A stretch of 63,290 nucleotides of DNA from assembly GCF_025506275.1 (NCBI RefSeq), contig NZ_QYCP01000074.1, positions 1 to 63,290 of the forward strand. The letters are read 5' to 3'. Under the pieces are notes generated by a model. It searched no databases, was not told the DNA's origin, and worked only from the letters and a program-made list of their open reading frames with translations. A program made the position numbers and the translations under genes. Source of the stretch: Brevibacterium permense (GTDB lineage: Bacteria; Actinomycetota; Actinomycetes; Actinomycetales; Brevibacteriaceae). Below are positions 2,286-6,618 of this stretch, piece after piece. The stretch's first letter is position 1; every line of letters begins with the position of its first letter.

Positions 2286-3673
2286 CAGACAATGTCACTA
2301 GAGCCGGCACTCCTTACCAGGATGCCATCCGCAACAACGTGTGGATGCACATGTCACCACACCAAGCACTGTTCAACGGTGGTGAGGCGCCGGTCATCGT
2401 ACGCGGCGAGGGTCACCACATCTTCGACGACAAGGGCAAGAAGTACCTCGACGGTCTCGCCGGCCTGTTCACCGTTCAGGTGGGGCACGGTCGTGAGCAG
2501 ATCGCGAAGGCGATGTATGACCAGACGCTGAAGCTGCCGTTCATGCCGCTGTGGTCGTACGCCCACCCGCAGGCGATCGAGGTCTCGGAACGTCTGGCCA
2601 GCTATGCGCCGGGCGATCTCAACCGGGTCTTCCTCACCTCCGGCGGCGGCGACTCGGTCGAGTCGGCCATGAAGCTGGCGAAGAACTACTTCAAGCTCGT
2701 CGGCAAGCCCGGCAAGCACAAGATCATCTCGCGGGCCACCGCCTACCACGGCACGCCGCACGGTGCGCTGTCGGTGACCTCGCTGCCGGGTCTGCGTGAG
2801 CAGTTCGCTCCGCTGGTCCCTGGTGCGCACAAGGTACCGAACACGAACTTCTACCGGGCACCTGAGCACCTCGCCCACGATGAAAAGGCCTTCGGCCGCT
2901 GGGCCGCCGACCGCATCGGTGAGGCCATCGAGTTCGAAGGTGCCGACTCCGTGGCCGCCGTCTTCCTCGAGCCCGTGCAGAACTCCGGCGGCTGCTTCCC
3001 GCCGCCTCCCGGATACTTCGAGCGGGTCCGCGAGATCTGCGACGAGTACGATGTGCTGTTGGTCTCGGACGAGACGATCTGCGCCTATGGTCGCATCGGC
3101 GACATGTTCGCCTGCAACGACTTCGGCTATGTTCCCGACATCATCACCTCGGCCAAGGGCATCACCTCCGGCTATGCACCGCTGGGTGCGATGATCGCCT
3201 CCGATCGGCTCTTCGAGCCCTTCGGCCCCGGCGGAGACGAGACCTTCTACCACGGCTACACCTTCGGCGGTCACCCCGTCGCCTGTGCCGCGGCGATGGC
3301 GAACTTCGACGTCTTCGAAGAGGAGAAGCTCAACGACCACGTGCACGAGAATGCTGCGGCGTTCAAGTTCACGCTCGAGAAGCTCAAGGACCTGCCGATC
3401 GTCGGTGACGTCCGCGGTGAGGGATTCTTCTACGGAATCGAACTCGTCAAGGACAAGGATACGAAGGAATCGTTCACCGAAGAGGAGTCCGAGCGGATTC
3501 TCAAGAACTTCGTGTCGGCGAAGATGTACGAGAGCGGTCTGTACTGTCGCGCCGACGACCGTGGCGACCCGGTCATCCAGCTCTCGCCTCCGCTGACCGT
3601 CGGTCAGAACGAGTTCGACGAGATGGAGCAGATCATCCGCGGCGTCCTGCAGGAAGCCTGGACTATGTTCTGA
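2282..3673 (+). CDS. Class III PLP-dependent aminotransferase
   Basis: 463 residues, full length for the omega-aminotransferase (class III) family. The PLP lysine is K292 in TSAKGITSGY, and D263 in VSDETICAYGR is the residue expected to contact the pyridine nitrogen. GGDSVESAMKLAKNY is the cofactor phosphate region. Family members move the distal amino group of putrescine, GABA, beta-alanine or diaminobutyrate to pyruvate or 2-oxoglutarate. Co-transcription with the Lrp regulator and divergence from an ectoine-hydrolase-like gene make a diaminobutyrate (DoeD-like) role possible, but putrescine or another omega-amino acid is equally open. The gene ends TGACCCCAA and is followed by a large palindrome. 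Confidence 0.85.
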   Translation: MTDNVTRAGTPYQDAIRNNVWMHMSPHQALFNGGEAPVIVRGEGHHIFDDKGKKYLDGLAGLFTVQVGHGREQIAKAMYDQTLKLPFMPLWSYAHPQAIEVSERLASYAPGDLNRVFLTSGGGDSVESAMKLAKNYFKLVGKPGKHKIISRATAYHGTPHGALSVTSLPGLREQFAPLVPGAHKVPNTNFYRAPEHLAHDEKAFGRWAADRIGEAIEFEGADSVAAVFLEPVQNSGGCFPPPPGYFERVREICDEYDVLLVSDETICAYGRIGDMFACNDFGYVPDIITSAKGITSGYAPLGAMIASDRLFEPFGPGGDETFYHGYTFGGHPVACAAAMANFDVFEEEKLNDHVHENAAAFKFTLEKLKDLPIVGDVRGEGFFYGIELVKDKDTKESFTEEESERILKNFVSAKMYESGLYCRADDRGDPVIQLSPPLTVGQNEFDEMEQIIRGVLQEAWTMF

Positions 3674-3682
3674 CCCCAATTG

Positions 3683-3738
3683 CTACCTGACGGCGGCCCA
3701 GAAACCTCGCGCGAGGTTGCTGGGCCGCCGTCAGGTAG
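3683..3738. repeat. 56-bp palindromic element, copy 1
   Basis: Two 28-bp arms with no spacer, beginning CTACCTGACGGCGGCCCAG and ending with its reverse complement. One arm mismatch (A versus C at arm position 20). The innermost bases read CTCGC/GCGAG where copy 2 has CTGGC/GCCAG, so the stem pairing is kept although the sequence changed. It lies between two convergent stop codons (aminotransferase at 3671-3673, YibE/F gene at 3753) and could act as a bidirectional terminator; there is no T-tract. Confidence 0.85.
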
Positions 3739-3752
3739 TTCCGGGGCGAAGT

Positions 3753-5072: not shown

Positions 5073-5170
5073 GGCGGTCCTTCAGGGACGGCCGACCGGA
5101 AAGATGCGGGGCGGTCGACCAGGGCGGAATGGAGGCTGGTGCTCACCGAGGCGGCCAGCCATTATCAAAA

Positions 5171-5226
5171 CTACCTGACGGCGGCCCAGCAACCTGGCGC
5201 CAGGTTGCTGGGCCGCCGTCAGGTAG
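5171..5226. repeat. 56-bp palindromic element, copy 2 (perfect)
   Basis: A perfect palindrome of two 28-bp arms without a loop. It lies 9 bases beyond the stop codon of glyS (minus strand), whose end reads TGACCCCAAC before the palindrome, the same flank as copies 1 and 3. It sits between the start of the YibE/F gene and the end of glyS and probably terminates glyS transcription. Confidence 0.88.
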
Positions 5227-5235
5227 TAGTTGGGG

Positions 5236-6618
5236 TCAGGCTCCGGCGAGGTGGTCGGCCAGGTACTTCTCCACCTGATCGATGCTCACGCGTTCCTGGC
5301 TCATGTCATCACGCTTGCGGATCGTCACTGCCTGATCATCGAGGGTGTCGAAGTCGACGGTGATGCACAGCGGCGTTCCGATTTCGTCCTGGCGACGGTA
5401 GCGACGGCCGATGGCGCCGGCATCGTCGAAGTCGATGTTCCAACGTCGACGCAGCGTCGCAGCGAGATCCTTCGCCGCCGGCGTCAGCTTCTCGTTGCGG
5501 CTCAACGGCAGCACCGCAGCCTTGACCGGAGCCAGGCGAGGGTCAAGCTTGAGCACGACGCGCTTATCGACGCCGCCCTTCGTGTTCGGCGCCTCGTCCT
5601 CGCTGTAGGCCTCGACGAGGAAGGCCATCATCGACCGGGTCAGGCCGAAGGAGGGTTCGATGACATACGGAGTGTAGCGGTCTCCGCTGGCCTGGTCGAA
5701 GTACTGCAGCTTCGCTCCCGAGACTTCGGTGTGGGTGCCGAGGTCGTAGTCGGTGCGGTTGGCCACACCCATCAGCTCGCCCCACTCGGACCCTTGGAAG
5801 CCGAAGCGGTATTCGATGTCGATGGTGCCCGCCGAGTAGTGCGCACGGTCCTCGGCGGGAACGTCGAGGCGGCGGACGTTGTCCTCGGAGATTCCGAGAT
5901 CGAGGAACCAGGACCAGCAGTCTTCGACCCACTGCTTGTAGAAGTCGTCGGCCTCGTCCGGGTGGACGAAGTACTCGATCTCCATCTGCTCGAACTCGCG
6001 GGTGCGGAAGATGAAGTTGCCGGGGGTGATCTCATTGCGGAACGCCTTGCCGATCTGGCCGATGCCGAACGGCGGCTTCTTCCTGGCAGCGGTGAGCACA
6101 TTGTTGAAGTTCACGAAGATGCCCTGCGCGGTCTCCGGACGCAGGTAGTGGAGTCCGGCTTCGGAGTCGACGGGTCCGAGGAAGGTCTTGACCAGGCCGG
6201 AGAACTCCTGCGGCTCGGTCCACTGACCGCGGGTGCCGCAGTCGGGGCAGACGATATCGGCCATTCCGTTCTCCGGAGCCTTCTTGTTCTTCGCCTCATA
6301 CGCCTCGACGAGGTGGTCCTCGCGGTGGCGCTTGTGGCAGTTGAGGCACTCGATGAGAGGATCGACGAAGGTGGCGACGTGGCCGGAGGCTTCCCAGACC
6401 CGCTTGGGCAGGATGATCGAGGAGTCGAGGCCGACGACGTCTTCGCGACCGCGCACGAACTGCTGCCACCACTGGGCCTTAATGTTGTCCTTGAGCTCCA
6501 CGCCCAACGGCCCGTAGTCCCATGCCGAGCGGGAACCGCCGTAGATCTCTCCTGCTTGGAAGACGAATCCTCTGCGTTTGGCCAGGGCGATGACGGCATC
6601 CAACTTGGACTGTGCCAC
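5236..6618 (-). CDS. glyS: Glycyl-tRNA synthetase (dimeric, GlyQS type)
   Basis: 460 residues, the length of the single-chain bacterial/eukaryotic-type enzyme. It charges tRNA-Gly in the cytoplasm. Class II features: motif 2 around FRNEI within TPGNFIFRTREFEQMEIEYF, and motif 3 in GLTRSMMAFL. A CxxC pair (CLNCHKRH) and CPDCG form the likely zinc site. Start: GTG at 6618 (VAQSKLD) with a good AAGGAGAG ribosome-binding site; the longer open frame to 6756 adds 46 Arg-rich residues with no family support. No T-box leader is visible. Confidence 0.95.
   Translation of the reverse strand: MAQSKLDAVIALAKRRGFVFQAGEIYGGSRSAWDYGPLGVELKDNIKAQWWQQFVRGREDVVGLDSSIILPKRVWEASGHVATFVDPLIECLNCHKRHREDHLVEAYEAKNKKAPENGMADIVCPDCGTRGQWTEPQEFSGLVKTFLGPVDSEAGLHYLRPETAQGIFVNFNNVLTAARKKPPFGIGQIGKAFRNEITPGNFIFRTREFEQMEIEYFVHPDEADDFYKQWVEDCWSWFLDLGISEDNVRRLDVPAEDRAHYSAGTIDIEYRFGFQGSEWGELMGVANRTDYDLGTHTEVSGAKLQYFDQASGDRYTPYVIEPSFGLTRSMMAFLVEAYSEDEAPNTKGGVDKRVVLKLDPRLAPVKAAVLPLSRNEKLTPAAKDLAATLRRRWNIDFDDAGAIGRRYRRQDEIGTPLCITVDFDTLDDQAVTIRKRDDMSQERVSIDQVEKYLADHLAGA

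Follow-up and report, generated by a model that had tools for sequence, protein, structure and literature searches.

The window analysed here is the whole 63,290-nt stretch of Brevibacterium permense contig NZ_QYCP01000074.1, and the subject is a 56-bp palindrome that sits at its gene ends. The core of this palindrome has no loop and belongs to a dispersed family. It is flanked by a C-rich stretch that, read toward the palindrome, ends either in AATTG/AATTA (A flank) or in an AGAA-like sequence (B flank). The genome of the window (4.2 Mb, 96 contigs) is called G000; other genomes likewise carry G-numbers and loci carry L-numbers. A first-pass annotation had reported three copies in the window, and they are present as it described them. 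The window also has a fourth palindrome site, which holds half a copy. The sites and the genes beside them are as follows.

2282..3673, plus strand: class-III aminotransferase gene (open reading frame, Pfam PF00202); its TGA stop, 3671-3673, lies 9 nt before copy 1
3674..3682, plus strand: A-type flank of copy 1, CCCCAATTG, from the sequence and the flank profile of G000 copies
3683..3738, no strand: palindrome copy 1, 56 bp, 27/28 pairs (96%), mismatch A3702/G3719
3739..3749, no strand: B-type flank of copy 1, TTCCGGGGCGA, from the sequence; ends in GGAA read toward the palindrome
3753..5072, minus strand: YibE/F-like gene (open reading frame, Pfam), ending toward copy 1 and convergent with the aminotransferase gene
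5171..5226, no strand: palindrome copy 2, behind glyS; perfect, with 29-nt arms and 0 nt between them
5227..5235, minus strand: A-like flank of copy 2, CCCCAACTA (minus strand), from the sequence; beside the glyS stop
5236..6756, minus strand: glycyl-tRNA synthetase gene glyS (open reading frame, Pfam); stop 5236-5238, 9 nt from copy 2
42398..42413, no strand: palindrome remnant, right arm only, GGCCGCCGTCAGGTAG; Brevibacterium sediminis has a whole palindrome at the same place
60996..63248, plus strand: UvrD-like helicase gene (open reading frame, Pfam), called helD by the first-pass annotation; stop 63246-63248, 19 nt before copy 3
63268..63290, no strand: palindrome copy 3, from the sequence; first 23 nt, cut off by the contig end

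The copies were said to share 28-bp arms. Copy 2 pairs perfectly; copy 1 pairs at 27 of 28 positions, and its mismatch had gone unmentioned. The inner stems do differ in the way that was claimed, CTCGC/GCGAG in copy 1 versus CTGGC/GCCAG in copy 2, with both sides changed. Open reading frames and Pfam matches also bear out that a TGA is the stop of the three adjoining genes (aminotransferase, glyS and helD). What does not survive is the conserved flank TGACCCCAA. It is a stop codon plus a variable flank, and CCC follows just 13 of 66 stops near a copy, compared with 10 of 192 other stops. The part of the A flank that is conserved is CCC[CT]AATT[GA].

The annotation had proposed a hairpin copied around the genome, and a genome search agrees. 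Searches with three palindrome patterns gave 38, 56 and 59 whole copies in G000, and the reversed patterns used as controls gave 0, 1 and 0. The 59 copies come from the outer-arm pattern (control 0). This pattern permits a span of 46-60 nt, and among the matches listed the span is nearly constant, 54 nt in almost all places. At the foot of the 28-bp stem CTAC is paired with GTAG, and there is no spacer at the centre. A single arm folds weakly (-1.4 and -1.9 kcal/mol). No clusters of palindromes were seen in the stretches read. Both flanks are readable in 50 copies: 8 have A on both sides, 25 combine an A with a B flank in either order, no copy has B on both sides, and in 17 one flank or both are untyped. 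Where a gene ends on one side only (24 copies), 10 have the A flank at the stop and the B flank away from it, 2 are the opposite, and 12 are other combinations. The simplest reading of the flanks would be a conserved directional unit of roughly 76 bp. The phosphoglucomutase site hinted that the stem lengthens site by site into its flanks. Tested on 51 G000 copies this was rejected as a rule, with an own-site score of 11.5 versus 12.6 for swapped flanks and 9927 of 10000 permutations at least as high.

The outer-arm palindrome is found in 23 of 57 Brevibacterium genomes, 15 of which have 29-74 copies and 8 of which have 1-16. The 15 high-copy genomes form one clade with support 99/92 in a midpoint-rooted glyS tree. 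An assembly artefact was considered and rejected, because six single-contig genomes (G003, G018, G028, G038, G043 and G048) hold 47-74 copies. A sample of the order with 396 genomes, 35 of them Brevibacterium, gave 12 matches; all fall in Brevibacterium, and 0 of the other 361 have the palindrome. A scan of named genomes with exact arms gave at least 105 loci, all of them Brevibacterium among the matches listed; the species among these are B. permense, B. sediminis, B. iodinum, B. epidermidis, B. linens, B. oceani and B. antiquum. Copies from that scan are biased toward the consensus. The glyS site has palindrome sequence in 15 of 15 high-copy genomes, and also in G045. Eleven of the 15 are whole and three are interrupted by inserted elements, all at most 13 nt from the stop, and the one in G009 is at 99 nt. 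Judged by eye, unrelated hairpins follow glyS in several relatives that lack the family. G009 and G053 have no palindrome at the aminotransferase site, where two genomes were not judgeable. Site comparisons came to 588 occupied and 390 unoccupied, many from the same few sites. Carriage by phages or plasmids was rejected, as there was no match in phage and plasmid collections; viral contigs had no match to one exact 24-nt palindrome pattern.

Outside the high-copy clade, small numbers of equally long palindromes occur (L053 in G005, L055 in G007, and G002:C16:439241) whose inner arms are different, such as GTATCGACCTCATG and its complement. These are possibly sister families.

The comparison to make is with repetitive extragenic palindromic sequences (REPs). 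REPs are found downstream of genes and serve as targets for insertion sequences (IS) of the IS3 and IS110 families (PMC1525189, PMC3733652). Papers on REPs, or palindromic units, and on the REP-associated tyrosine transposases (RAYT) describe short dispersed extragenic palindromes that serve as IS targets and lie mostly downstream of genes, between convergent or same-strand genes (PMC2817692, PMC3733652, PMC3116915). The Brevibacterium family is alike in all of this. However, the REPs of those texts have a 5-13 bp stem with a loop and a free GTAG (or CGTC) tag. Here the palindrome is 56 bp and loopless, the GTAG is paired at its foot, and the units are single. RAYT-associated REPs also come with a Y1 transposase (PF01797), and 0 of the 57 Brevibacterium genomes has one at E 0.001, while 5 of 14 control genomes were positive. 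A RAYT was therefore rejected as the mobiliser. We argue that the palindrome resembles a REP in its behaviour yet falls outside the GTAG/RAYT class, because the tag is paired in the stem and this transposase was not found. Nor does it fit REP doublets forming hairpins (REPINs) or bacterial interspersed mosaic elements (BIMEs), which consist of two inverted REP hairpins with a spacer, or of clusters. A non-autonomous transposon (MITE) would show a target-site duplication and the terminal inverted repeats of a known transposon; eight aligned pairs gave no clean empty site, and no parent element was found.

The annotation knew of no described family of this kind, and we likewise found no description of the Brevibacterium palindrome in open-licence papers. 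A text search of a REP survey (PMC3733652) gives 0 occurrences of Brevibacterium or Actinobact, although the survey cites REP-like sequences of M. tuberculosis. In two Brevibacterium genome papers (PMC6579920, PMC5719810) the passages found with 'palindrom' only spell out the CRISPR acronym. Descriptions of REPs and of the RAYTs that mobilise them come mainly from other phyla, and here there is a REP-like family in an actinobacterium. It has spread and persisted where no RAYT-type transposase was found, and therefore its mobiliser and its upkeep become testable questions.

Sequence change between copies bears on that upkeep. Only copies of exactly 56 bp with 40 nt on both sides were compared. 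The mean difference over the 56 positions is 2.94 for orthologous copies (248 pairs), 2.96 for copies at different sites within one genome (2144 pairs) and 3.92 where both site and genome differ (15186 pairs). Copies within a genome are as alike as orthologues, from which we infer either exchange between copies or later spread. The pattern is uneven: G000-G035 orthologues differ by 1.06 versus 2.40 for other pairs, and for G000-G009 the values are 3.82 versus 3.58. An excess of compensatory stem changes had also been suggested, and it is there. Two-sided changes of the arms number 205 versus 19 expected under independence, with 324 one-sided (248 orthologous pairs, not mutually independent). 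Among 95 distinct sequences 63 cells changed on both sides, versus 16.7 after shuffling (maximum 26). Such coordinated change is expected equally from selection on the stem and from arm-templated correction.

The placement of the palindrome was examined for 53 copies in 41 stretches of G000, with genes called by a codon model specific to the analysis. At least one gene ends toward the palindrome in 48 of the 53, and 25 adjoin two such genes. Of the remaining five, three are truncated by a contig end, and the genes on either side of the other two are divergent. Tabulating the stops upholds the placement at gene ends: the nearest is at most 20 nt away in 43 of the 48 assessable copies, versus 25% of 2080 random 56-mer draws from 104 palindrome-free gaps. 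Gaps that hold a palindrome are convergent in 19 cases, same-strand in 18 and divergent in 2; for gaps that hold none the figures are 10, 41 and 41 (chi-square p 2e-7). Among the 66 stops at most 45 nt from a copy, 25 are TAA, versus 12 of 186 elsewhere (Fisher p 9e-9), and for 18 of the 66 the stop is the TAA of TAATTG, exactly 3 nt from the palindrome. Three genes stop at a TGA inside the palindrome. The idea that the repeat carries or captures stop codons is thus half right. It supplies stops, but no capture that changes a protein was seen at the gene where this could be followed, which encodes phosphoglucomutase. This gene has matches in 57 of 57 Brevibacterium genomes; the best 30 of the 57 were fetched and 29 were readable. 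Palindrome sequence follows 15 of these orthologues and does not follow 14. The palindrome unit abuts or supplies the stop without altering phosphoglucomutase, because all 29 end at the same codon.

One can imagine a purely selfish or neutral repeat that inserted widely and of which only harmless copies just behind stops survive, its hairpin having no role for the host. Inserted elements are tolerated within copies, which suits such a repeat, and REPs share the preference for 3' ends (PMC3733652). However, the nearest stop is at exactly 3 nt in 19 of 48 copies, which is tight spacing. Throughout the clade the palindrome persists at the glyS and phosphoglucomutase sites, and the two-sided changes are ten times expectation, even if arm-templated repair could also give these. 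We hold a purely selfish repeat to be unlikely, if still a serious competitor. Another scenario has the palindrome as a protein-binding or cruciform DNA site (for chromosome architecture, gyrase or another dyad-binding protein), so that the gene end is merely a gene-free place. The near-fixed length and loopless perfect dyad do exceed the needs of a terminator. Yet the palindrome prefers the stop side and is hardly ever found between divergent genes (2 of 39 palindrome gaps), which points to RNA, and a DNA site seems quite improbable to us.

The palindrome is also a target. An element with ends TGGAGTGGTCCCC...GGGGACCACTCCA interrupts the glyS copy of G043 at the palindrome centre. This element has two reading frames with helix-turn-helix (HTH) and rve matches, and short inverted ends; in L278 it is 1539 bp long. 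From the Pfam matches it would be an IS3-like element (IS3 family). Its end sequence is in 7 of 57 genomes, all of them high-copy (Fisher p 2e-5), and was not found in G000 despite the 59 palindromes there. Every IS3-like end read lies at a palindrome centre (59 of 59, of 78 listed), and the centre is repeated on both sides of the element, over 3 bp in L186 and 4 bp in L278.

Since a palindrome arm frames every one of these ends, one may ask whether the palindrome is a transposon leftover, either a pair of terminal repeats brought together when the interior was lost or a scar of the IS3-like element. However, the element has ends of its own, and the short repeats of the centre look like those of an insertion. 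It is present in just those 7 genomes, its end sequence was not found in the palindrome-rich G000, and the arms around its copies carry the local variant, for example GCCCCAGC in G053. A leftover is very improbable on this evidence.

At four G053 loci (L282, L285, L286 and L288, 4 of 9 IS3-like copies) the ends are about 4.45 kb apart rather than 1.5 kb. These copies would be a larger element or one with cargo, still within the palindrome.

The second inserted element belongs to the IS110 family, with a DEDD transposase (PF01548 and PF02371 over the cut-off in L290). Its left end is TGTGAGT..., and it measures 1385-1411 bp where both ends were read. It is in 12 of 57 genomes, namely 11 high-copy ones and G040, with one copy in G000. 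Of 71 places 29 were read (30 loci fetched, L349 not parsed). The left flank is palindrome sequence at an exact point in 29 of 29, and the right flanks, of which 18 were read, are palindrome too. The points of insertion are the centre, ACCT[CT]GCGC^GAGG; mid-arm, CTACC[CT]GACGGC^GGCCC; and the foot, CTAC^CTGACGG behind either flank. Within the left end, at about 75-90 nt, the element carries ACCT[CT]GCGC, ACC[CT]GGCGG, AATT[GA]CTAC or CAGAACTAC. Three elements were folded: L195 and L290 leave this guide-like stretch unpaired, and L291 places part of it in a small hairpin.

The best match of a 9-letter guide to its own site is 9 in 19 copies, 8 in 4, 7 in 4 and 6 in 2. Over 13 distinct pairs the left guide matches its own site at a mean of 8.15 of 9 letters versus 5.89 when swapped, a value reached by 1 of 100000 permutations. 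Random 9-mers of the window match at 8 or more in 0.3%. On the right side the match is weaker, 4.69 of 6 versus 4.12 (38 of 20000 permutations). Guide and target vary in step down to single letters: ACCTTGCGC guides stand at ACCTTGCGC sites in G041, and the C/T change of the mid-arm is followed as well. The elements form a compact natural data set on IS110 guide retargeting, in which guide and target differ in step. Rfam gave no match over the gathering score in three IS110 loci. We predict from these sequence matches that insertion here is steered by the element's own bridge RNA. The seekRNA of IS1111/IS110 elements is reportedly a related guide-RNA system. The use of guide loops by an IS110 element is established for IS621 (PMC11208160), and that work describes, as here, a DEDD recombinase and a guide-like loop at the left end that matches the left target. 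Here, on the other hand, the guides vary by copy with the palindrome window and its local letters, and the right-guide match is weak. Known elements that target REPs include IS1397, ISKpn1 and ISPsy8 (IS3) and IS621, ISPpu9 and ISPpu10 (IS110) (PMC1525189). The same two IS families thus meet on a host palindrome, but genus and palindrome are different, and the IS110 element here strikes three exact palindrome points.

TGT(G) letters stand at the palindrome centre in L183, L127, G003:C1:2372828 and G009:C13:65085. By their sequence they may fit an IS110 end lost through a GAG repeat.

We argue, with a probability of roughly 70%, that this is a Brevibacterium-specific REP-like palindrome behind stop codons that is an exact target of IS3-like and IS110 elements and likely forms an mRNA hairpin ending or protecting transcripts. 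With its flanks the hairpin has a predicted energy of -68 to -79 kcal/mol. Intrinsic terminators are similar in being GC-rich hairpins directly behind the stop, often between convergent genes; they differ in that this palindrome is repeated near-identically, with a 28-bp stem and no U-tract. No known RNA family scores over its gathering threshold in the window. A terminator or mRNA-end role is likely, and it would work as follows. Transcription running past a gene end would meet CCCCAATTG and the 28-bp stem, and the stem is predicted to halt or dislodge RNA polymerase, or to keep exonucleases out. Where two genes converge, one hairpin would serve both. It would be a terminator poor in U and often active in both directions, or a stabiliser of 3' ends. 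An agent that has since been lost or was not found would have spread the family in the clade's ancestor, and the copies would now be mostly inherited in place. They would stay alike and palindromic by exchange between copies or arms (gene conversion or template switching), and partly by selection on the stem.

Several observations weigh against this scenario. None of eight aligned unoccupied pairs shows a clean empty site, and no mobiliser or parent element of the palindrome was found. Two of the 53 copies lie in gaps between divergent genes. In B. epidermidis, variants with a mismatch, in which GATACC faces GGTTGC, are common (10 arms in 16 copies), and therefore perfect pairing is not strictly required. 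The tail of the hairpin is TTCTGGG, CAATTGGG or TAATTAGG, with no U-tract. Many copies have inserted elements inside them, and therefore each copy must be dispensable. Some copies have an ordinary hairpin beside them (L088, L166); in the rest of the gap such hairpins number 3 in 61 behind palindrome-bearing stops versus 31 in 83, a comparison we do not rely on as the lengths are unequal (34 versus 100 nt). The guide match is just 6-7 of 9 in 6 of the 29 IS110 copies. Four of these, with 7 of 9, are the mid-arm class, and they reach 8 of 9 by eye when the register is shifted one letter. The two with 6 of 9, both in G053, have an A-flank guide and an insertion at a B flank. We argue that each copy is useful but not essential, because there is no U-tract, ordinary hairpins stand beside some copies, and elements are tolerated inside.

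An abundant, mostly harmless and conserved palindrome would be a good target for transposons able to read it. We put at even odds a more specific scenario in which the palindrome is a shared landing strip. An RNA-guided IS110 radiation would have been re-programmed to several palindrome windows (centre, mid-arm, and foot with either flank), tracking host polymorphism to single letters, while the IS3-like element takes the centre. The host would keep RAYT-free gene-end hairpins that draw transposons off its genes.

Some minor observations concern the window itself. When the remnant at 42398-42413 is set against L088 near 7767, a deletion in G000 is seen to have taken the left arm and the last codons of the preceding gene. 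The stop of the open reading frame 41964-42413 is now the TAG of the remaining palindrome arm. The window also has perfect inverted repeats with a 1-3 nt loop at 24258-24290, 43322-43356 and 53585-53623. The first two have CACCGA/TCGGTG beside the loop and the third has ACCGA/TCGGT, and these are possibly the ordinary terminator form of the G000 genome. Lastly, the ends of G000 contigs C2, C4, C9, C15, C35 and C66, like position 63290 of the window, are in palindrome sequence or within about 50 nt of it. The repeat therefore probably breaks short-read assemblies, and the window itself ends inside one copy.

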